Below, piece by piece: positions 2,773-21,465 of a DNA stretch of 22,260 bases. The notes beneath the pieces are model-generated. The model was not told where the DNA came from and made no database searches. It worked only from the letters and a program-made list of their open reading frames with translations. The first letter of the stretch is position 1. Every line of letters starts with the position of its first letter. The position numbers were made by a program, and so were the translations under genes. The DNA comes from a virus. The DNA lies in the IMG/VR virus record IMGVR_UViG_3300021197_000296, positions 1 through 22,260 of that record, one strand, 5' to 3'.

Positions 2773-4977
2773 TTATCCCATCGCCTGACCTAGAGTGAAG
2801 CCGTAGAAATTACTGCCACCGTCCACCGTAATGAAGGCAAATACATCTACCCCTGCATTAGTTGCAGTGATCGTGGGTGCTGTGGCTGCAGCCCAGTCAA
2901 CAGTTCCAGGCCAAGTGATTGTCCTTGCTGAACTGTCTTGCACCACCTTCAAGATAAATGCACTCGCTCTGCCAGATGCAGCAGGGTTGCTAAACGTGTA
3001 CGTTACATTCTCAGATAGAGTGTGCGTAAACACGTTGCCATCTCTTAGGTTAATCGTGGCTGCGTTGGAGCTAGAGGTTACGACTGTGCTTTCTTCAGTT
3101 GTGCCGTTGTCAAAACTTACAACACCATTTGCGTCTGCTGTAACAAAAGCACTGGCATTTGTTGTGCCTAGAGCATTAGGCAACTTAACAGTGTAGGTTG
3201 CTGATGCGCTGTGCGGTGCAGACTGTATCGTTATGCCATGAGAGTTGTTCTCACAGTTAAGAACAATTGAGCCTTGGTTTGTATTACCTTTGACTACAAC
3301 ACGACCAGTACCATTCGGCGCTAGATCAATATCTGCGTTAGAAGTAGTGACAATATCCTGACCATTCATGTCTAAGTCACCGCCCAATTGCGGAGAACTA
3401 TCGCTTGCTACATCAGCTATGCCTGGTGATATGCCTACCCATGCAGATCCGTTATAATATTTTAACAAGTTGCTAGAGCTATTATAGGCTAGATCACCTT
3501 CATCAAGCGCACTTGTTGGATCTGAGCTTGCAACTCTGTATCGATCCGCAAAGCTATTAACACCAGATATATTAGAGGCAACAGTAGTAATATTGCTGTT
3601 AGCCCCAGCGACAGTCGCTATATTATTAACATTCGTTGTTGTTGCTATTGTATTAAGATCGCTAACGAAATCACTTGTAGCCAATGTATTAAGATCACTT
3701 ACAATGTCTGACGTTGCTAAAGTATTAATGTCAGACACAATATCAGACGTTGCAAGCGTATTCAGATCGCTAACAATGTCCGATGTAGCAAGTGTGTTAA
3801 TGTCACTTACAATGTCTGTTGTTGCTAGTGTGTTTAGATCGCTAACAATATCGGATGTTGCTAGGATATTTAGATCTTCAATGACTGCAGTCGTTGCGAC
3901 TGTGTTTAAATCACTAACGAAATCAGACGTTAGCAAACTAGATTTTGCAGCTACTGAATTTATGTTTGTCGCATTTCCAGCTACCGTATTAATATTAGCT
4001 TGATTAGAAGACGCTACAGTAATTGTAATAAATGCAGAACCATTCCAGACTTTCATTTCCCCATCACCAGTATGAAAAAACAAAGCACCAGTTACTAACG
4101 CATCACCATCGTTGTCAGTGCTAGGATCACTAGACTTAGCGCCTAAGTATCTATCATCCAAGTTATCAAAACTTGCAGCTGCGTTTGTAGCTGATGTTGC
4201 AGCTTCGCCAGCTTTTGTGCTTGCTGTAGCCGCGCTTGCAGCTGACTCACTTGCCTTAGTGGTTGCCGTCGCAGCGCTTGCAGCACTCGCTGTAGCTGAT
4301 GTTGTTGCAGATGCAGCATCAACAAGCAGATCCCACTTTGCGCTATCAGTGTTAGTTGTTAGTGGCTGTGAGCCAGAACTTGTATGGGCTGTGTTAGCTA
4401 TGAAAATGTTATTAGTGCTTGTGTCCTTAACAATATCACGCACAACGTAACTTGTAGATGCACCCCAATCGCCTTTGAATATACCAATGGCTTGCGTAAT
4501 ACTGACGTTACCAGAGCCATCGAACGCAAAGATCTTGTTTGCTCGATCTGTTGCAGAGATAGTGAATTCAGAACCTGTTAAGGTGTTTGTTTTAGATGCC
4601 TTAATTGTACGACTTAATTCTTCTTCATGTTTTTGTGTAACGAATATAACTTTGTCTAGTGCTTCTTCTAAGCTTTCAGCTGGAAAGGCAGTATTAGGCA
4701 CGAGATCTAAGCCTTGGGTAAGAGGCTGTTCACGTATAATAACAACAGTCACGCCGCTTGCTGGGGCAGTTCCAAAGACAACATTACCACCACTGGCCTC
4801 GCCTACGCCTGACACTGTGTAATGCGTTGTTATTGTCTTTGTGGTTTCAGTGCCATCTGCTGCCCTTAGAATGACAGTCAGATCGTCTTGATCAAAGACC
4901 TTAAAGCTATAGGCGAAAGTAGTTAGCGAACCATTGCCGGAATAACTTACTTTGTTTGTGGAGCTACTTACTGTCAT
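2773..4977 (-). CDS. Tail fibre protein with T7-type N-terminal attachment domain
   Basis: This 734-residue protein has the classic podovirus fibre layout. Residues 1-130 match the T7 gp17 N-terminal (virion-attachment) domain style: YSGNGSLTTFAYSFKVFD, HYTVSG, VVIIREQPLTQGLDL and AFPAESLEEALDK. Residues about 221-270 are an Ala/Ser/Thr-rich helical linker. Residues about 277-318 and 480-515 carry two related SSDP...GDL...WNGSAF/YYNGSAW modules. Residues 348-443 are eight tandem 12-residue repeats. Residues about 525-625 hold LGGDLDMNGQDI and VVKGNTNQGSIVLNCE, typical of marine phage fibres, and 630-734 form a beta-rich C-terminus. It overlaps the 1084-aa gene by 4 bases (ATGA). The N-terminus should anchor to the tail tube and the C-terminus should face the host. 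No intramolecular chaperone domain or enzymatic motif is evident. Confidence 0.88.
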   Translation of the reverse strand: MTVSSSTNKVSYSGNGSLTTFAYSFKVFDQDDLTVILRAADGTETTKTITTHYTVSGVGEASGGNVVFGTAPASGVTVVIIREQPLTQGLDLVPNTAFPAESLEEALDKVIFVTQKHEEELSRTIKASKTNTLTGSEFTISATDRANKIFAFDGSGNVSITQAIGIFKGDWGASTSYVVRDIVKDTSTNNIFIANTAHTSSGSQPLTTNTDSAKWDLLVDAASATTSATASAASAATATTKASESAASAATASTKAGEAATSATNAAASFDNLDDRYLGAKSSDPSTDNDGDALVTGALFFHTGDGEMKVWNGSAFITITVASSNQANINTVAGNATNINSVAAKSSLLTSDFVSDLNTVATTAVIEDLNILATSDIVSDLNTLATTDIVSDINTLATSDIVSDLNTLATSDIVSDINTLATSDIVSDLNTLATSDFVSDLNTIATTTNVNNIATVAGANSNITTVASNISGVNSFADRYRVASSDPTSALDEGDLAYNSSSNLLKYYNGSAWVGISPGIADVASDSSPQLGGDLDMNGQDIVTTSNADIDLAPNGTGRVVVKGNTNQGSIVLNCENNSHGITIQSAPHSASATYTVKLPNALGTTNASAFVTADANGVVSFDNGTTEESTVVTSSSNAATINLRDGNVFTHTLSENVTYTFSNPAASGRASAFILKVVQDSSARTITWPGTVDWAAATAPTITATNAGVDVFAFITVDGGSNFYGFTLGQAMG
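3649..3936 (-). repeat. Eight tandem 36-bp in-frame repeats in the fibre gene
   Basis: Residues 348-443 of the fibre are eight 12-residue units with consensus LATSDIVSDLNT. Units 3-6 alternate between SDLNT and SDINT endings, suggesting duplication of a two-unit block. At DNA level the copies differ at many synonymous positions, while the amino-acid pattern (Leu/Ile at fixed positions, conserved Asp and Asn/Thr) is kept. This fits a repetitive fibrous shaft. Flanking residues (about 322-347 and 444-475) look like weaker copies. Confidence 0.9.
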
Positions 4978-7900
4978 CGTCTACCTTCTTTCTTGAGGCG
5001 TTCTACTTGTTGATATGCTGTTTTTAAATCTTCATTGCCTGGTACTTGAATGAGTACGCGAAAGCCCTGATCTATAAATTGTTTGTTAATATTGCGTAGC
5101 AGTGCAATTCTGTCTTTATCTTTAAGACCTTTATAACTTCTGCTTTGCGTTACCGCACTAAGGGTCTGTCGAAATGTGAGCGTTCCGAAACCACTGCGTC
5201 TAACTTTAACTTCGTTTTTAGCTAGGCGAATAAGATCTGACTGTGTGCCATAACTTAGTGTAATATTGTTGTATTTTTCTGGGTTTGTTAAAGGCCACTT
5301 ATTGGTCATGTCATGTAACCGAATAAGTTCTTTTTCATAGTTTTCTAATGCATCACCGTCTTTAATTCGCAAGCCTGTAAGCGCACCAAAAATAGCAGCT
5401 CCAGGTTTATTGGCAAAACTTACATCTTCCTCACCTTGCACCTCACCAAATGTGTCATACCGTACAGCGTTGTAATCGCGTTCATCTCTTACAAAACTAT
5501 CTTTTGCTTGGAACGAATTCATTTTGTCAAAGAATGCTTGAACTCCCCAACCCTTTTTGGGTGTGCCCACTAAGTCATAATTTGGCGAGCCGTTAGTTTT
5601 TGCGTATTTAAATACTTTGTTGCCATCAACAACATCAAATTGCTGTATGTCCTCAAGTGTATAATATTCAAAATCTTCTCTTGGGCTCACTGGTGTAGGA
5701 TCCGCTAGGCGCTGAAACATTCGTTGCAAAGAAGATAATGGATTAGGCAAGCCAACTGGCGTTGCGTTTTCTGCGTATGACCGAGCAATTTTAGCTGGAT
5801 CAAAACCATTTAAAAAGGATGTAACATCTGCAATACCTTGCAACATTGGCGCTTCTTTATAGTACTCACCAACTGCAATAGCTGCTGCATGTATGTAGCT
5901 TTTTTGCAGTTCTGGATCTCTTGTTTTGTTTGCACGTTGTACTGTGTCTGCAATAATAGCTAACAAACCGCCTACTGGTTCGTATCCAGAATAACTTACA
6001 TATCTTAGTGGCCCATTAGGTCTACCAAAAACGTCAAATAAATCGTCAACACCTTCGGGCCAACCCTCGCCTTTTAAAACAAAGCTGTAAGGCTGCCAGC
6101 CAGGTGGTAAGGCTTCGCGCTGCACTTTTGTTTCTGGCATACCACCAGTCAGGTTTCCATCCATAGCATGTTTACCAACTGCCAATGTGGTAGCCGTACC
6201 CATTGTAAATCTGCCAAAAGCAAGCTGTTGTTTGCGTGGGCCGTTATGACCTAACAGGTCAAACGCAGCCTTAGACACTGGCAGCGGTATATACTCAAGT
6301 GTTCTTAAAAGTGCATTTGTCGGAGCTGTAACAAAAGGCACAATAAAACGTCCTACTAGTTTTCTTTGAAAAGCAGACATGGCTTTTCCAAAAGCGCCTA
6401 GATCACTTTGCAAGGTATCAAACTTTGCTTTTACATCGAGGTCATCAGCAACAGCACGAGGGTCTAGCATCAGCATACCAGCCTCATCCATTGCCTCTTC
6501 TTTTGTCATGCCTTGGCGTAATGAATGTTGGTATCTTTTATTGAGTGCTGTGTAAAACTCACCGCGCTGAGAAATTGTTTTAGTAAATTCATCGCCAGCA
6601 AGCAGCAAACGAAAAGGTATACGCATACTTTTTGACAAAGTATCTAACGATTTACCAAACATTGTTTCACTGTTTTGAAAAGATGGCTGGTATTGATCAA
6701 TATCTAACTTGCTTGCGCCAGCTGGCTGTTCTGTACGCCAAGCTATTGAGGCCGCTTTCATTGCATCGCCCCAGGCATCACTCCAGCCTTTTACACGCAG
6801 CATAGCATCTTCTATGTATATTTGATCCTCTGCTATTGGGTAGGCCATTCCAAGCTGCTTACGTCCAGCTCTTACAACTTCGCCAAACATGCCAGCAAAT
6901 ATTTCCGTTGGCAGCTGAAACAACATAAAACTTGCATTTGAAAAGATGTTTTTAAATTGTGTTGATGGCGCGGATAATAGACCAGCTAAAAATGCTTCAT
7001 GCACCATTTGTTTCGTTTTTGCGTAGTATCCAGCTTGCGAAAATTCATTGATACCTTTCATACCATTTTCTTTGCCAGCTCGCAGCAATCGATCAGCCAT
7101 CATTTCTGTTACGTCATCTTGACCACTTTCTTTTAATAAACGGTTGGCCTCTGCACTAAATTGCTCTGCGTTTAGTTCACCGCTTACAGAAATTTGAAAA
7201 GATTGCAGAGCCCTAGCAGCTTCTGTTTGAGCCCCTTTGAGCTGTAACTGTATGCCACTATGGATAGCTAATTGCCGACGAAACTTTAGACGTACATCTG
7301 CACCAGCTCCGTTTTTTATTTGAATGGCAAGGTTTTCTAATTTTTCAGCGCTTCTAACTAGCAACTCTCTACCAGCAACAAACTCATCTGCTGTCAGGCC
7401 ACCTTCGCCAATACGCCTAGATAAAAGCCTATCCGTAAAACCAATTTCATCAGCCAACAAAAGCATAGCGTCTTGTTTAGTTTTGTTATTAGGTATTTTG
7501 CCTCTAGTGCGAGCGACTGTTTCATCAGCATACGTTTCGCCCACAGCCGTAATCATGGCTTTTACATCATCATCTGTATCAACATAATCAAAATTAAAAT
7601 CACCACCATCTTTGAGCGATTGTATGTTTTGTTCTTTTTGTGATGTTCGTAGCAAAATTTCATCTGCTACCGTTTCATCTATAACGCCAGCTTCTGCGCT
7701 GAACCCACGCTTGTCAGCTTGTAGCGCTCGCTGTGCTTGCTTATTTACATCAATAGCTAAAGCTGAAGCAGATTTTGATTGGTCACTCAGTGCGCTTTGT
7801 GCGTCTTTTAAAACATCCGTGGGTGCTTCTTCACCAATGCCAAACGATTGCAAGTTACGGTCTTTAAATTTTTCCACACCTTCTGCACTAAGTATTTTTG

Positions 7901-8228
7901 GTGCAAGCTCTCGCTTTGTCGCTGCTTCAGAATACATACCAGGTTCATCAATCAAACCTCGCTCTTGACCTGTTGGTACTCGCGGAGCTACACCTACTGG
8001 GCTTTGCTTTGTGCCAAGACCACTTGCTGCACTTGGCTTAGAAACGCTGCTATCTACGCTATCAATAATTTTAATAACTGGCGCAAAAAGCTCCATCACA
8101 GCGCTGCCTTTGCCAGCAACTTGCACACCTTGCGCTGGATCTGTTGCAAACTCTGTAGGCGAGCCAGCTGCATTGATCTGTGCACGTTGTGTTTGCTCTT
8201 CAGCTAAGTCTTGTGGATTTACTGCCAT
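4974..8228 (-). CDS. Large internal virion / DNA-ejection protein (polyvalent-type domain)
   Basis: At 1084 residues this is the longest gene in the window, in the slot corresponding to T7 gp16, just before the fibre. Residues 1-110 are low-complexity. Residues about 110-400 are helix-rich and charged. Residues about 405-830 resemble a domain common in large phage ejection proteins: RLLLAGDEFTKTISQRGEFY, then FIVPFVTAPTNALLRTLEYI, then FGRFTMGTATTLAVG and LPPGWQPYSFVLKG. Several hydrophobic or amphipathic helices here (near 415-455, 625-650, 670-690) could insert in membranes. The rest is helical and ends in charged residues. I see no lytic transglycosylase signature such as the one at the N-terminus of T7 gp16. 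The start is chosen for its GAGG site 4 bases upstream and the boundary with the preceding terminator. Role inferred: released from the capsid to help DNA cross the host envelope. Confidence 0.75.
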   Translation of the reverse strand: MAVNPQDLAEEQTQRAQINAAGSPTEFATDPAQGVQVAGKGSAVMELFAPVIKIIDSVDSSVSKPSAASGLGTKQSPVGVAPRVPTGQERGLIDEPGMYSEAATKRELAPKILSAEGVEKFKDRNLQSFGIGEEAPTDVLKDAQSALSDQSKSASALAIDVNKQAQRALQADKRGFSAEAGVIDETVADEILLRTSQKEQNIQSLKDGGDFNFDYVDTDDDVKAMITAVGETYADETVARTRGKIPNNKTKQDAMLLLADEIGFTDRLLSRRIGEGGLTADEFVAGRELLVRSAEKLENLAIQIKNGAGADVRLKFRRQLAIHSGIQLQLKGAQTEAARALQSFQISVSGELNAEQFSAEANRLLKESGQDDVTEMMADRLLRAGKENGMKGINEFSQAGYYAKTKQMVHEAFLAGLLSAPSTQFKNIFSNASFMLFQLPTEIFAGMFGEVVRAGRKQLGMAYPIAEDQIYIEDAMLRVKGWSDAWGDAMKAASIAWRTEQPAGASKLDIDQYQPSFQNSETMFGKSLDTLSKSMRIPFRLLLAGDEFTKTISQRGEFYTALNKRYQHSLRQGMTKEEAMDEAGMLMLDPRAVADDLDVKAKFDTLQSDLGAFGKAMSAFQRKLVGRFIVPFVTAPTNALLRTLEYIPLPVSKAAFDLLGHNGPRKQQLAFGRFTMGTATTLAVGKHAMDGNLTGGMPETKVQREALPPGWQPYSFVLKGEGWPEGVDDLFDVFGRPNGPLRYVSYSGYEPVGGLLAIIADTVQRANKTRDPELQKSYIHAAAIAVGEYYKEAPMLQGIADVTSFLNGFDPAKIARSYAENATPVGLPNPLSSLQRMFQRLADPTPVSPREDFEYYTLEDIQQFDVVDGNKVFKYAKTNGSPNYDLVGTPKKGWGVQAFFDKMNSFQAKDSFVRDERDYNAVRYDTFGEVQGEEDVSFANKPGAAIFGALTGLRIKDGDALENYEKELIRLHDMTNKWPLTNPEKYNNITLSYGTQSDLIRLAKNEVKVRRSGFGTLTFRQTLSAVTQSRSYKGLKDKDRIALLRNINKQFIDQGFRVLIQVPGNEDLKTAYQQVERLKKEGRR

Positions 8229-8290: not shown

Positions 8291-8476
8291 TTATTTAATT
8301 CTAAATTGCTCTGGTAGCCCAGCTTCTTCTTCCGCGCCTAGCTCTTTTGGCATATCACCCATAAAAGCGAGTTCAAGATATTGTTCGCGTGTCATAGGTA
8401 AATTTAAACGTTGCATTAGTGCCAATACGCCATCTTCATTCCCAGGTTGGGGCGTTAACTCCGTTTGCTCGTTCAT
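8291..8476 (-). CDS. Small acidic hypothetical protein
   Basis: This 61-residue acidic protein has a short helical core (VLALMQRLNLPMTREQYLEL) and a C-terminal KELGAEEEAGLPEQFR stretch. No known function is recognised, although the NLPMTREQYLELA segment is of a type I associate with small proteins between virion genes of marine podoviruses. Its ATG lies inside the end of the 781-aa gene (41-base overlap in another frame), with a GAGGAG site 8 bases upstream. That site supports genuine translation despite the overlap. It is the last gene before a terminator. It could be a minor virion component or a chaperone for an adjacent ejection protein; this is only positional inference. Confidence 0.65.
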   Translation of the reverse strand: MNEQTELTPQPGNEDGVLALMQRLNLPMTREQYLELAFMGDMPKELGAEEEAGLPEQFRIK

Positions 8477-10781
8477 TTACCAATCTCCTCGTTTCATCTA
8501 ACTCTATATCACCATTTTTATAACTTTGCCAGATCGCGTCTATATCAGCAACATTTTTTGCACTTGCTTTAAATTTGTCAGGAAACAAACCTCGAACAGC
8601 TTCCCATGTTATAGATTGCATTTGCCTTGGTAAAATTTCACGTTCAGCAGCAGCTCGTCTATAAGCTTCAGCATATAATCCATAATTACCTGACACGCCA
8701 GTTTTTGCAGATCCTTTTGTTGTTCCCCTACCTTTTATAGCCTGGTTTTTAAAATTATGATCAACCTCTAACGAGTTGCCAGATAACGGCCTTAGAAGCC
8801 CAGCCGCTACCGCATGTGTATCTATTGTTACATCACCAAACGATGAATTAGGATCATAGATGTTATTATAAAAATTTCTTACTTTATGTCGCTCACCCAT
8901 AAGTCTTGATATTGTATTAACATCACCAGCTGCATCAATTGAGGCAACTGCCTTCCCTATTTCATTTAATGATCCCCAAGCAGCTTTACTAGGTGTTCCA
9001 TCTGCATTTGTTGCAACCTCTAGAAACTCACCTTCTGGACTTACAATTTTATAATCTGGTTTGTTATAGGTTTGATCATACAACCTTACAAACATAGCTC
9101 GTAATGTTGCTTGCACAGCTGGGTTTTCATCTACGATTTCCGCATATGATTTATTTTTTATTGCATCCAAAATTGGTTTATATTTTGGTTTGTTTAATGA
9201 TGGCAAATTAACAAACGTTTTTTCCATTTGTTTTGTAAATTTAAAATCTTTTTGTTTTGTAGCAACTTCAAGTGTTCGTTGTGCTAGACTTACGTTTTGA
9301 TACCAATCTTTTTGCGGAGACAAACCAGCTAATACACCAGCTATAGACGTGTCAGACACATCATATTCTTTTGACCATCGATCAGTTATTGCTCTTGCAC
9401 CATCGTACCACTTTCGGCTTCTTACTCGTGTGCCTTCTGGCACTTCATCATGCAGATATAATAAATTATCTTTTACATGCTCAATAAAACGTTCACTTGT
9501 TGCGTCTATTGTTTCTGCGTCCACAGAACGCATGTTTGGATAGTCTTTTGTGATGCTTACATTGAAATCAAAAAGCTTTGGATCTTTTTTCATTTCCTCT
9601 AATCCAATGATTAATTCACCAGACATGGGATCTTCGTCTATTTGTTTTGCGGTAGGTAACCGTGTTGATATGCGTCCAGGTAAATTATTAGCAACTGCTA
9701 ATTCATTTTGTTGTCCAACGTTACCTAGATTACTACCAAGTGGCGGCATTTGACCAGGCTGGTTAAGTCGCTCACCAACATCAGCTAAACCAACACGCGC
9801 TTTTGATATAATTGCTTTAAGAGGTTTACTTATTAACTTACCAACACCAGTGGCTTCTGCTAATCCGGCAAGAACCAACATAGCGCCAAGACCTCGATCA
9901 GCACCGCCAGTTGTGCGACCTTGCGAAAATAATCTTGCACCCTCTTGGATATCCATAACGCCAGCAGTTACAAAATCACCAACACCTATACCTAGCGAGT
10001 TAGAGCTACCAAAAAACATTCCTGATAATGCTTCAGCTTCGTTTACAAGGCGTGGTCTTTCTGCCTCTAACTGTGTTTGTATTTCATTTTGTGCAAAACC
10101 TTGTTCGCGCAAATCTTCTGCAAGACTGCCTTCTGCTAATCCTAAAAGATACTGACTTAATTGCAGTTTGCCAGTTTCTCGCAATGTCGGATCGTACTCG
10201 CCAATGACAGATCCACCATTACGGATAATATCTTCAACCTCTGCTGTAGATAGCGGCTCTGTTCTTATCTCTTCATTAGGCATGTTGTCTTGCGCTTGAT
10301 TGCCAAAGACTGCGTTTGTTACTTCTGGAGAATATCCAGCCGCTAACAAATCTTGCGCTGTCGGATTGCCAAGAGAAGTGGCGTAAGCTCTTGCGTCCTC
10401 AATGCGTGTTTGCTCTGAAACAAATGGAGCTGCTTCTGCTTGTCCTGGCTCGTTTATTGATGGGCCTGTGCTCATTACCTCTGGCTGTGGCTCTGGATCT
10501 GGATAATACCGCTGATACTCTGGCGTTTCTCTGCCATACTCCATGCCGTTGAGAAGAATAGATCCTGGCCTGGTAGCTTCTACATCTAGACTTTCTTCAC
10601 CTATTTTAACGTAGCCACCACTGCCCATTCGCGTTAAAATATCATGCGTTCGAGTTTCTGCATTGAACACACTTTTTTTATCTTTTGTGGTTTGTGGATT
10701 AATGCCAGATTTTAAAACATTTTCAGCTTCAATGTATTTTTCAACCTCATTATCAGTCAGATTATTTAATAAATCACTCAT
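8436..10781 (-). CDS. Putative internal virion protein with C-terminal enzyme-like domain
   Basis: This 781-residue protein is divided into two halves. Residues 1-260 are acidic, proline-containing and low in conserved motifs; about 260-330 is Gly/Ala-rich and hydrophobic (SLGIGVGDFVTAGV, then RGLGAMLVLAGLAEATGVG), compatible with membrane interaction. Residues about 430-735 form a separate globular domain: RKWYDGARAI, AGVLAGLSPQKDWYQNV, GERHKVRNFYNNIYDP, VTIDTHAVAAGLL, YGLYAEAYRRAAAE and RQMQSITWEAVRGLF. That ordered set matches an uncharacterised domain I recall from phage proteins, notably of actinophages. The all-helical character and single Asp-x-His motif are reminiscent of helix-hairpin-helix DNA glycosylases, but this is a guess. 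The start codon overlaps the upstream stop (TAATG). The position among internal virion proteins suggests it is packaged and ejected. Confidence 0.7.
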   Translation of the reverse strand: MSDLLNNLTDNEVEKYIEAENVLKSGINPQTTKDKKSVFNAETRTHDILTRMGSGGYVKIGEESLDVEATRPGSILLNGMEYGRETPEYQRYYPDPEPQPEVMSTGPSINEPGQAEAAPFVSEQTRIEDARAYATSLGNPTAQDLLAAGYSPEVTNAVFGNQAQDNMPNEEIRTEPLSTAEVEDIIRNGGSVIGEYDPTLRETGKLQLSQYLLGLAEGSLAEDLREQGFAQNEIQTQLEAERPRLVNEAEALSGMFFGSSNSLGIGVGDFVTAGVMDIQEGARLFSQGRTTGGADRGLGAMLVLAGLAEATGVGKLISKPLKAIISKARVGLADVGERLNQPGQMPPLGSNLGNVGQQNELAVANNLPGRISTRLPTAKQIDEDPMSGELIIGLEEMKKDPKLFDFNVSITKDYPNMRSVDAETIDATSERFIEHVKDNLLYLHDEVPEGTRVRSRKWYDGARAITDRWSKEYDVSDTSIAGVLAGLSPQKDWYQNVSLAQRTLEVATKQKDFKFTKQMEKTFVNLPSLNKPKYKPILDAIKNKSYAEIVDENPAVQATLRAMFVRLYDQTYNKPDYKIVSPEGEFLEVATNADGTPSKAAWGSLNEIGKAVASIDAAGDVNTISRLMGERHKVRNFYNNIYDPNSSFGDVTIDTHAVAAGLLRPLSGNSLEVDHNFKNQAIKGRGTTKGSAKTGVSGNYGLYAEAYRRAAAEREILPRQMQSITWEAVRGLFPDKFKASAKNVADIDAIWQSYKNGDIELDETRRLVNERANGVNAPTWE

Positions 10782-12544
10782 TAAAATAATCCTCTATTTG
10801 AAAAGGCTGAAATTATTCTTTGCCTAAAAATACCTAACTCATTACGTAATGACTCTTGACCATTTGCATCTAAGTTATTGTAGTGTTGTTGAACGCTTCC
10901 AAGTGGATCTGTTTTATCTATTACAAAACCGTTAAAGATATTATTTGCTGCAAATTCATCAATATAATCATTATATTCAACACGCAGTGTTTCTGTATAA
11001 ATAACCATAAATTCTTTAAGTGTTTTTTGTGCAAACTCACGCAGCTCTGAACGTGTCATAGGATTTCCCTCTGACTGTCTTTTGTTGCTTTCTAATAACA
11101 ATTCTGCTGCTGCTGACTCGTAGGCTGTTTTGGACGCTTGTGCTAAATTATCGTCTTTTCCAATTGCTTGTAATTCATTATATCGGAAGCTTAATTTTAA
11201 GATTTGTTTAGCTTCGCCTAAAGCCTCATCGCTTTCAGCTTGCACTTGTCTAAGAATGTTGTTGTGCTGAGTTGCAGTGATGAGTGGTCTACTGTTTGTT
11301 AGTTCTTCTATTGTTAACTCACCAGTTTCAGCTAATGCAAACAATCTACTATTTTCCGCTTCGCTTTGTTCGCCTGGTGCTGCAAAGATTACGTTTGTAC
11401 TTACATCAAGTTCTGTAGCCAGCTGATCTTGTTGCTCTCTATTAAGCCAAAACTGACCTTTTGCACCAAGCACATTATTTATAAAATGTTTGGCATCTAA
11501 ACCAATTGCACCGCTTGGAAACTTTTTTTCAAATGCATCTAAATCTGAAGGGCTTAAAAGTTTTTCCATAGTTTCAATGGAAACCGTATCACCATTATGC
11601 ACACCTAAAGCAAAGTTGTATGCCTTGGTGTTTTTTCTGTTTTGCGTTTCTAATATTTCATCTTCTATTTTCTCTTCAAAATTATAAAACTTTGAAGCGC
11701 TATCTATAGTGGTAGCTAATATTGCTGTAGCGTCTGAAGGAGAAATTCGGTTTAAAACATTTAGAACGTGTTGTGGTATATCATCACTAAATACTGGTTC
11801 ATCTATTTCACCAGCTCGCACCAACTGTATTTGCTCGTAAGCCTCATTAAGATCCATTGCTTTGTTTAGATCACGCCCAGCATAGGCTGGCATCATGTTT
11901 ACAGCGATACGTTTTATAACATTATTAGGAAGAGTGTCTCTTGCTTCTTTTTCTAAACCGCCAAGATCAATGGCTCTTGTTGTTTTTTCTGTTTCTTCAG
12001 CGAACTCAATTTCAAAGGTTGTCGGGTTAACATAAGGATCTGAGTATTTTTGAATTAAATCTTCCCAGCCCTCGTTAACCGATAATACATGCATTTTTTC
12101 TATTTTAGTATCGATTTGGCCTTTTAGTGCAAATCTTGCTGACAACTCTGCTTGTGCAAATGCTGTATCAAATGCTGCCAATGCGTATTTATCGGTTCCT
12201 ATATTAGACCGTAATTTTCTTTTTATATCGCCTGTTTCTTTATCCCAGCGCCCAGTGCCATCCTCTTCAAAAATATCATAAGGATTGTTATCATTTAGAA
12301 ACCCATCTGATAACTCTAGCATGGCTTCTTTCGCGCCAAGAATAGCTTCGTTCTTGCGTGCCTCTACAATAATTTTGCGTTGCGTTTGAGCGTAGCTTGC
12401 TGCTTGGGAAAACAACTGCGATTGCATATTTCCTTTTGCTTGCGCTTGCTGAATAAACGGATTGGGGTTTTTTCGTGCAGTAAAACTTTGACCAGGCGTT
12501 TGCGTTGTTATTTGTGTCTGCGAACGAAAAGAAGGTATTCTCAT
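10781..12544 (-). CDS. Putative internal virion protein (gp15-like slot)
   Basis: This 587-residue protein is rich in Gln, Asn, Glu and Ala, with long predicted helices and no catalytic motif. Residues 1-35 are a disordered Gln/Thr/Pro-rich lead (SQTQITTQTPGQSF). Residues about 38-80 form an Ala-rich helix (SQAASYAQTQRKIIVEARKN). The rest alternates acidic helices, including LDAFEKKFPSGAIGLDAKHF near 333-352 and a heptad-like stretch near 430-500. It lies between a gp14-like and a large putative ejection protein, the position of the middle internal core protein in T7-type phages. An AGGA site lies about 8 bases before the ATG (12542-12544), and the upstream gene ends 9 bases earlier. No sequence family is recognised with confidence; the call rests on order and composition. 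Confidence 0.65.
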   Translation of the reverse strand: MRIPSFRSQTQITTQTPGQSFTARKNPNPFIQQAQAKGNMQSQLFSQAASYAQTQRKIIVEARKNEAILGAKEAMLELSDGFLNDNNPYDIFEEDGTGRWDKETGDIKRKLRSNIGTDKYALAAFDTAFAQAELSARFALKGQIDTKIEKMHVLSVNEGWEDLIQKYSDPYVNPTTFEIEFAEETEKTTRAIDLGGLEKEARDTLPNNVIKRIAVNMMPAYAGRDLNKAMDLNEAYEQIQLVRAGEIDEPVFSDDIPQHVLNVLNRISPSDATAILATTIDSASKFYNFEEKIEDEILETQNRKNTKAYNFALGVHNGDTVSIETMEKLLSPSDLDAFEKKFPSGAIGLDAKHFINNVLGAKGQFWLNREQQDQLATELDVSTNVIFAAPGEQSEAENSRLFALAETGELTIEELTNSRPLITATQHNNILRQVQAESDEALGEAKQILKLSFRYNELQAIGKDDNLAQASKTAYESAAAELLLESNKRQSEGNPMTRSELREFAQKTLKEFMVIYTETLRVEYNDYIDEFAANNIFNGFVIDKTDPLGSVQQHYNNLDANGQESLRNELGIFRQRIISAFSNRGLF

Positions 12545-12553
12545 GCTTTTATC

Positions 12554-13162
12554 CTATATCGCCAAACTTGTGCCAAGAGTGCTAGGACGAGGCATAGGTC
12601 TAGGAGATGATGTTAATGGCCCTGGTGAAGATCCGCTAAACAAACCAGCGCTTGATGCATAATTTACAGCACCACCAATACCAGCAATAAGAGATGCATT
12701 ACCTTGAGCTCTATATGCTCCAGCAGTCGCGCCACCTTCCATTCTGGTTAGTTCTGCTGTGAGTTTGACGTTTTCTTTTGCGTCTACAATTTTCATTTGT
12801 GTAACGCTGTCGTTAAACCGTTGCTTTGCCATTTCGTATTCAAACAATCTTGCATTCTGACGCAATCTTCGCATTGGTGTTCCGGAAGCAACATCAATAC
12901 CGTTTGCCGCATAGCCAGTAACCACTGAGCCCTGTAGTTCATCAAACTCAAAACGACTTTGTTTTTCGCGTACAAGTTGAGCTGCGTAAACAAGCTTGGC
13001 CTGACGATCAAGAATATCAAGATCGCGTTCTATAATATCAGCGTTGAAGTTTGCAGCCTCTCGTGCTGCTTCAGCGGCTTTATCGGCTGCTTTTTTTTCA
13101 GCAACTGCACCGCCAACACCTAATACAATGTTGGCTACGGCTAATGGTATTAAGGGATTCAT
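12554..13162 (-). CDS. Internal virion protein, gp14-like
   Basis: This 202-residue protein begins with a hydrophobic segment (about 4-18, LIPLAVANIVLGVGGAVA), followed by an Ala/Lys/Glu helix and a long helical region (to about 150) containing GYAANGIDVASGTPMRRLRQ. The latter motif recurs in T7 gp14-type internal virion proteins, which are ejected first and form the pore through the outer membrane. A second small-residue hydrophobic stretch (about 155-172, ASLIAGIGGAVNYASSAG) precedes a Pro/Ser-rich tail. Length is close to T7 gp14 (196 aa). The gene follows tail tubular protein B by 9 bases, with an AAAGG site before the ATG. The pore-forming role is known for the T7 protein and inferred here. 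Confidence 0.75.
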   Translation of the reverse strand: MNPLIPLAVANIVLGVGGAVAEKKAADKAAEAAREAANFNADIIERDLDILDRQAKLVYAAQLVREKQSRFEFDELQGSVVTGYAANGIDVASGTPMRRLRQNARLFEYEMAKQRFNDSVTQMKIVDAKENVKLTAELTRMEGGATAGAYRAQGNASLIAGIGGAVNYASSAGLFSGSSPGPLTSSPRPMPRPSTLGTSLAI

Positions 13163-20406: not shown

Positions 20407-21465
20407 TTAACCAGCCAATAATGCTCTTCGTGTTCTAAGCTTTGGATCTTCATTTTCATTGTTAGCTGTGAGCAATCCACCAGGTCTTGTTAAGATCGAT
20501 GCTCTGCGTCCTTTGGTGTACATGTTTATGGCATTATCTTCTGCTGGCCCTAAAGATATGGCGGCATCAGCTTCCATTTCACCACCCAACGCGGTGTTGC
20601 TGCTTACGTTTTGCACTGCTGCTGGCACTGAAGTTAAGATACTCGTACCACTTACGCCACTTGGTGTATCACCAGCTGCAGCGGCTGCTTCTGCAATTTC
20701 TTCAGGTGTTAGATTAGTGCTTTCATCAATTGCATCACCATCCGTAAAATCGTCTGTAGATTGATCTACATCACCAATTATCTCCCCACCTAGTGCAGCA
20801 CCTGCTGCATCACCAACCTCACCTAATGCTGCTTCTGCTGCCGCTGCCGCTTCTTCTGGTGTTTCCGGTATTGGTGTTCCTGGTGGTATTCCAGTACCTG
20901 GGCCTAACGGCAAGGCGTTTAATTCTCCTACTATATTTGTGCTAGCAACAGCTTCAGCTCCTGCTAGACCATCGCCATCGCCGCCATCGTCACCATCATC
21001 ATCGTCACCATCATCACCGCTATCGTCATCACCGTCTTCTTTTTCTATATAAGCAGCACCTATTTCATCAGCCAAACGCTTTACAGTTTTTATCTCATTA
21101 CTATCTTTACCAGCGCCAGAACTCAAAATGCTGCCATCAGATAATTCTAATGTCGTTAAGGTATCTTTATTTGCCCCGAAAATATTCTTTCCACGATCAC
21201 CAATATTTGCATCAATATTATCATCGCCATACGTTAATTGCGCACCAGCTTCAGCAGCCTCTAATCCAGCCTTAAAACTATCAAAGGTTGTTGCTAACGC
21301 ATTTTTATTGCCACTTTTACTACTACCAGATCTATCAGAAGAAATAACCGTTCGTTTCCCACCGGAATCAATTTTTTCAATTATGTTTTTTCCGGCCTTA
21401 AAACGACCAACGTATCTCGTACCATCAGCCCTGGTAAAACTATCATATTCTTCATATTCAGACAT
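20407..21465 (-). CDS. Acidic low-complexity protein between terminase and portal
   Basis: A 352-residue, strongly acidic protein. Residues 1-35 form a short possible beta unit (DSFTRADGTRYVGRFKAGKN). Residues about 60-140 are mixed. Residues 141-166 are almost entirely Asp, Gly and Glu. Residues about 185-310 are Ala/Gly/Pro/Glu-rich and probably disordered. The C-terminus (about 318-352) is basic: KGRRASILTRPGGLL, then LRTRRALLAG. This last motif is of a type I recognise at the ends of proteins encoded beside portal genes in marine podoviruses. Function unknown; a virion, neck or packaging accessory is plausible from order (10 bases after terminase, 2 before the next gene). The ATG (21463-21465) follows AAGGAGA. 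Confidence 0.7.
   Translation of the reverse strand: MSEYEEYDSFTRADGTRYVGRFKAGKNIIEKIDSGGKRTVISSDRSGSSKSGNKNALATTFDSFKAGLEAAEAGAQLTYGDDNIDANIGDRGKNIFGANKDTLTTLELSDGSILSSGAGKDSNEIKTVKRLADEIGAAYIEKEDGDDDSGDDGDDDDGDDGGDGDGLAGAEAVASTNIVGELNALPLGPGTGIPPGTPIPETPEEAAAAAEAALGEVGDAAGAALGGEIIGDVDQSTDDFTDGDAIDESTNLTPEEIAEAAAAAGDTPSGVSGTSILTSVPAAVQNVSSNTALGGEMEADAAISLGPAEDNAINMYTKGRRASILTRPGGLLTANNENEDPKLRTRRALLAG
20968..21045 (-). repeat. Asp/Gly low-complexity tract
   Basis: Bases 20968-21045 encode residues 141-166 of the 352-aa protein, about two-thirds Asp/Glu and one-third Gly with one Ser, visible as repeated (atc)n-like triplets on the plus strand. It is a likely flexible, highly negative linker, possibly metal- or protein-binding. 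Such triplet tracts can vary in length by slippage. Confidence 0.85.

Follow-up and report, generated by a model that had tools for sequence, protein, structure and literature searches.

We propose that residues 366–781 of a 781-residue protein encoded by a T7-like podovirus form a divergent DNA glycosylase/AP lyase domain of the helix-hairpin-helix (HhH-GPD) type, captured by a virion protein that is ejected into the host, and we put the probability of this reading at roughly 60%. The domain belongs to the DUF7178 family, for which the Pfam entry and the "glycosylase" labels on some actinophage members were already known. What is new here is the structural and catalytic-residue support, together with the virion and polyvalent setting. 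A widespread family of "unknown function", spread over cyanophages, roseophages, actinophages and many environmental podoviruses, gains a predicted fold, two predicted catalytic residues and a testable reaction. Moreover, tailed phages appear to bring a set of proteins with them into the cell, and a predicted DNA-base-excising enzyme would join this set.

A variable half joined to a constrained, widespread domain

The window, that is, the whole 22,260-nucleotide stretch of viral DNA that was analysed, encodes this putative ejection protein on its minus strand, at 8436–10781, as a variable N-terminal half followed by a C-terminal DUF7178 domain. Compared with eight relatives, residues 1–360 show 34–47% identity and a dN of 0.53–0.80, whereas residues 370–781 show 75–83% identity and a dN of 0.12–0.20, about 4 to 6 times lower; in the two pairs with unsaturated dS, dN/dS for the latter stretch was below 0.1. 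Judged from these substitution rates, residues 370–781 are under strong purifying constraint. A preliminary description of the window had placed an enzyme-like domain at 8577–9494, and residues 430–735, which we regard as the HhH-GPD-like core, map exactly to that interval on the minus strand. All the motifs quoted there occur in the 781-residue reading frame, and the marked unlikeness that it saw between the domain and the N-terminal half is borne out by the identity and dN values. Its limits were too narrow, as the conserved module delimited by alignment A1, the AlphaFold2 model and the low dN covers approximately residues 366–781 (8439–9686, minus strand). A match to RepB_primase_C at residues 220–249 was weak, fell below the cut-off and was discarded.

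The protein is a member of PF23802 (DUF7178) by Pfam, scoring 93.6 bits where the gathering cut-off is 27 (E = 1.9e-26), and the domain also matches phrog_3842 (E = 2.8e-26), which like the Pfam family comes without a function; taken as sequence scores, these matches are far beyond chance. One scan of viral contigs gave 384 relatives confirmed by tblastn, a scan of viral contigs with the Microbacterium member found none, and a literature search for DUF7178 found no paper. Free-standing members of about 200 residues are present in 160 phage records, including mycobacteriophages, Streptomyces, Gordonia and Microbacterium phages, cyanophages, roseophages and SIO1-like podoviruses. The preliminary description had linked the motifs to uncharacterised actinophage proteins, and indeed DUF7178 members are found in actinophage records, some of which annotate them as "glycosylase" or "N-glycosylase/DNA lyase". 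Most annotated members of DUF7178 or PHROG 3842 are such free-standing proteins, encoded by early or accessory genes; unlike them, the copy in the window ends a virion-operon protein and bears an insertion of about 90 residues. The free-standing gene is the third after the terminal repeat in ICBM2, ORF03 in A-4L and gp03 in CRP-1; it lies upstream of the RNA polymerase gene in P-SSP10 and, in SIO1, where it is gp9, upstream of the replication genes. These map positions suggest that the podovirus free-standing genes are expressed early. In cyanophage NATL2A-133 (41678–42264, hit H24), the free-standing DUF7178 gene matches in two pieces, annotated as two hypothetical proteins, and is perhaps split by a frameshift.

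Predicted fold and active-site residues

The AlphaFold2 model of residues 357–781 is almost all-helical (pLDDT 91, pTM 0.90). With its insertion included, the window domain had no significant Foldseek match in the PDB. The best match, trichodiene synthase (E 0.29, TM 0.13), was rejected as not significant, and Pa-AGOG, at rank 28 (TM 0.24/0.35), stood out by TM-score among poor matches. The insertion, at approximately residues 511–601 (8979–9251, minus strand), contains a beta hairpin and was delimited by hhalign of the A3/A2 profiles against A1 and by the secondary structure of the model; members of the virion-fused branch have it in common, and the free-standing members lack it. Given the Pa-AGOG lead and this insertion, an insert-free member of the family was therefore modelled instead. 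The free-standing member L177 (37-sequence alignment A3) gave a compact AlphaFold2 model with a pLDDT of 95, and its best 25 Foldseek matches in the PDB were all 8-oxoguanine DNA glycosylases, namely OGG2 of M. jannaschii, T. maritima and S. solfataricus, AGOG, and mouse or human OGG1. Probabilities reached 1.00 and TM-scores 0.62, with modest E-values (best 0.028); chance would hardly put 25 matches out of 25 into a single enzyme class. The window domain aligns with the free-standing family along its entire length (hhalign E = 2.9e-27), and end-to-end homology between the two can be considered secure at the profile level. Searched against viral models, the window domain retrieves the free-standing members of S-CBP42, Tefunt and a Salinibacter phage, as well as many large phage proteins, some of them named for ART-PolyVal or other domains. 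On the strength of these models, it is well supported that DUF7178 adopts a divergent HhH-GPD fold, closest to OGG2, AGOG and OGG1.

The residues expected at the active site of such a fold are intact. The LSPQKDWYQN motif (residues 487–496; 9294–9323, minus strand), in which alignments and homologue counts show the Ser, W493 and the Asn to be invariant, resembles by eye the LSAQATDVSVN of E. coli endonuclease III (Nth), and the Trp and Asn of SPxxxWxxN are present in all 303 distinct homologues. Residues 621–642, the LMGERHKVRNFYNN region (8856–8921, minus strand), form a predicted helix-hairpin-helix, as seen in helices H265–271 and H276–286 of the domain model and in the alignment with the HhH of Nth. 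The predicted catalytic lysine, K633 (codon 8883–8885, minus strand), lies there within ERHKVRNF and is conserved in 309 of 309 distinct homologues; the predicted catalytic aspartate, D654 (codon 8820–8822, minus strand), is conserved in 305 of 305. In an hhalign comparison with an Nth/MutY alignment built in this analysis, the invariant Lys and Asp fall on K120 and D138 of Nth. The score of this alignment was 26.9–30.6, with a weak probability of 9–23%, and for each of three query profiles it exceeded that of all 200 block-shuffled decoys. Independently, and in agreement with the profile alignment, the Lys begins the second hairpin helix in the models, and the Asp caps the helix that follows. 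Both corresponding residues are essential in AGOG and OGG1 (PMC9638937). That the Lys/Asp pair of bifunctional HhH-GPD glycosylases is retained as K633 and D654 is well supported by these alignments.

These results bear on several suggestions of the preliminary description. It had singled out D654, H656 and W493 as conserved, which is true without exception for D654 and W493 in about 300 homologues; H656, the His after the Asp, is found in 299 of 306 distinct homologues and gives way to Trp in mycobacteriophage members. Its DTH motif looks catalytic as far as D654 is concerned, but the Thr varies (T, G or R), the His can be Trp, and the predicted pair is K633 with D654. K633, missing from its list of residues, is the one that matters most for the predicted function. 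Its view of the domain as catalytic rather than structural agrees with the fold and the invariant residues. The same is true of its guess of a relation to helix-hairpin-helix glycosylases; the structural match to OGG2, AGOG and OGG1 was obtained for the free-standing relative and not for the window domain itself.

Could the HhH-GPD likeness be superficial, DUF7178 being another all-helical enzyme or a structural domain? Sequence searches might suggest so. Sequence searches of the PDB, whether by the protein or by profiles A1 and A2, gave nothing relevant, 37 members scanned against Pfam and NCBIfam returned neither PF00730 nor any related or other glycosylase family, an AlkA-type HhH-GPD profile gave no signal against the DUF7178 profiles, and no HhH-GPD family gave a significant sequence-profile match; the Foldseek E-values are weak as well. 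Against this stand the single enzyme class of the best structural matches and the register of Lys and Asp reached by two independent routes, and we consider a superficial likeness very unlikely.

Within the HhH-GPD superfamily, the all-helical fold of the free-standing model, the hairpin Lys and the later Asp are features that DUF7178 shares with OGG2, AGOG and OGG1; it differs from them in having neither sequence-level similarity nor the C-terminal lysine of OGG2, which is strictly conserved there and senses 8-oxoG (PMC3397491). The C-terminus reads HNI or similar in full-length free-standing members and PTWE in the window protein. Nor is there any conserved cysteine in the invariant columns of A1, A2 and A3 that could belong to the four-cysteine iron-sulphur cluster of Nth and MutY. 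Because this lysine and these cysteines are absent, we do not file DUF7178 with OGG2 or with Nth/MutY, and its fold likeness does not imply 8-oxoG as the substrate. For a closer profile, OGG2 sequences were also sought in 149 genomes of one bacterial phylum, with none above the cut-off.

One could also imagine that the glycosylase fold was kept only for binding or guiding DNA within the ejection machine, catalysis being lost or irrelevant. In T7, the C-terminal part of gp16 binds DNA and deals with the genome as it enters (PMC8954989), and the insertion of the fused branch could change the active site. However, Lys and Asp are invariant in both fused and free-standing forms, which binding alone would not demand, and the free-standing copies are early, non-structural genes. 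A role confined to DNA binding therefore appears unlikely.

Virion genes and polyvalent relatives

The 781-residue protein is encoded among genes for internal virion proteins. In order of transcription, the window encodes the portal, probable scaffold and coat, tail tubular proteins, a 202-residue gp14-like internal virion protein (12554–13162, minus strand; phrog_418, E = 8.5e-6), a 587-residue protein (10781–12544, minus strand), the 781-residue protein, a 1084-residue gp16-like protein (4974–8228, minus strand; phrog_6651, internal virion protein, E = 1e-15) and the tail fibre. The 587-residue protein has no Pfam or PHROG match and is assigned to the T7 gp15 position by synteny, the order being conserved in relatives. 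This gene order is repeated in six related contigs (L001, L006, L026, L029, L034 and L044) and, with more divergence, in three others (L070, L072 and L263). Gene order and the internal virion protein families matched by the neighbours thus recall the T7 ejection proteins gp14, gp15 and gp16, and synteny suggests that in this T7-like podovirus DUF7178 is carried by one of the internal virion (ejection) proteins. T7 differs in that no comparable protein lies between its gp15 and gp16. Moreover, the enzyme domain carried by T7 gp16 is a transglycosylase (PMC8954989) and acts on peptidoglycan, whereas the enzyme predicted here would act on DNA.

Elsewhere in the region, a 636-residue protein at the downstream end (858–2768) matches DUF7483 (E = 1.4e-62) and virion or tail-fibre PHROGs, and is probably a receptor-binding or fibre protein. 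A 352-residue reading frame upstream of the portal gene (20407–21465) has no Pfam or PHROG match. In 14 related contigs of up to 34 kb, perhaps incomplete (L002, L011, L036, L039 and ten others), no family A DNA polymerase was found, which is unusual for T7-like phages.

In other relatives, DUF7178 is part of giant proteins of 1,100–5,100 residues, and those that we scanned carry ART-PolyVal, LPD22, LPD38, inorganic pyrophosphatase, GGDEF, RadC or methyltransferase domains. In three contigs (L069, L084 and L086), the gene of the giant protein directly follows that of a gp15-position protein of 565–632 residues. In a tree built on core columns, the fused forms make up one clade (SH-aLRT 100), and the two copies of virus Rctr197k, which lie within a large multidomain protein, group elsewhere, among the free-standing members. 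This topology is consistent with at least two captures of the domain into large proteins, long branches making the exact placement unsure. When a fused copy is present, it is the single such protein and without a free-standing copy in 29 of 30 records, most of which are fragments; a 138-kb contig has two fused copies. The Rctr197k protein (P0004, L088:786-6905; 2,039 residues) bears its two copies in tandem, at about residues 1100–1300 and 1380–1660, and also holds a pyrophosphatase and a 2'-5' RNA ligase-like domain. A contig of Pseudofulvimonas gallinarii (L262:1194-9809) encodes a 2,872-residue protein combining GGDEF, a RadC-like JAB domain and DUF7178.

For the polyvalent proteins of phages, which unite at least two domains of unrelated function in one polypeptide, packaging and delivery have been proposed (Iyer et al. 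2017, PMC5512222). The DUF7178 proteins of the relatives have the same partner domains and the same neighbourhood of virion genes, and the gene in the window is likewise encoded among late virion genes; the window protein differs in being short, with DUF7178 as the only domain recognised by Pfam and no partner. Delivery into the host fits both the gene order and these fusions. An active glycosylase that stays out of the particle, as a late-expressed DNA enzyme merely located in a structural operon, would also be compatible with two observations: we found no proteomics in the literature for this phage or its relatives, and two contigs (L048 and L051) have the gene beside portal or terminase genes. 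We nevertheless judge it improbable. Many relatives have the domain joined to a variable N-terminal half, exactly between the gp15-position and gp16-like genes, the giant-protein genes of L069, L084 and L086 follow the gp15-position gene, and fusions with LPD22, LPD38 and ART are typical of packaged polyvalent proteins.

Possible roles during DNA entry

We propose the following scenario for a packaged, active glycosylase. The 781-residue protein would enter the cell together with the phage DNA and, once in the cytoplasm, its C-terminal domain would act on DNA early in infection. The domain would flip out a base and excise it, D654 assisting while K633 attacks C1' to form a Schiff base, and the strand might then be cut 3' of the abasic site. 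Tentatively, and with slightly less than even odds, the use of this reaction would be to clear the incoming phage genome of damaged or unwanted bases ahead of its first transcription and replication. We slightly favour such repair because the nearest folds are those of repair enzymes and the free-standing homologues lie in early regions. An offensive use against host or modified DNA, or a counter-defence, is less probable, and fits the polyvalent partners. More doubtful still is the specific proposal of an injected DNA glycosylase that an entire branch of phages uses as a weapon, removing particular, perhaps modified, bases of host or incoming DNA at entry. The main text of the survey of polyvalent, injected phage proteins (PMC5512222) neither contains the word "glycosylase" nor records a base-excision activity, and PADLOC gave no match. 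If a packaged enzyme of this kind is active, these phages would be able to repair or edit DNA ahead of any phage gene expression. Brig1 and other anti-phage enzymes (PMC11078745) are likewise DNA glycosylases at the phage-host interface; compared by description rather than by sequence, they are bacterial defences directed against T-even DNA, whereas the enzyme predicted in the window is encoded by the phage.
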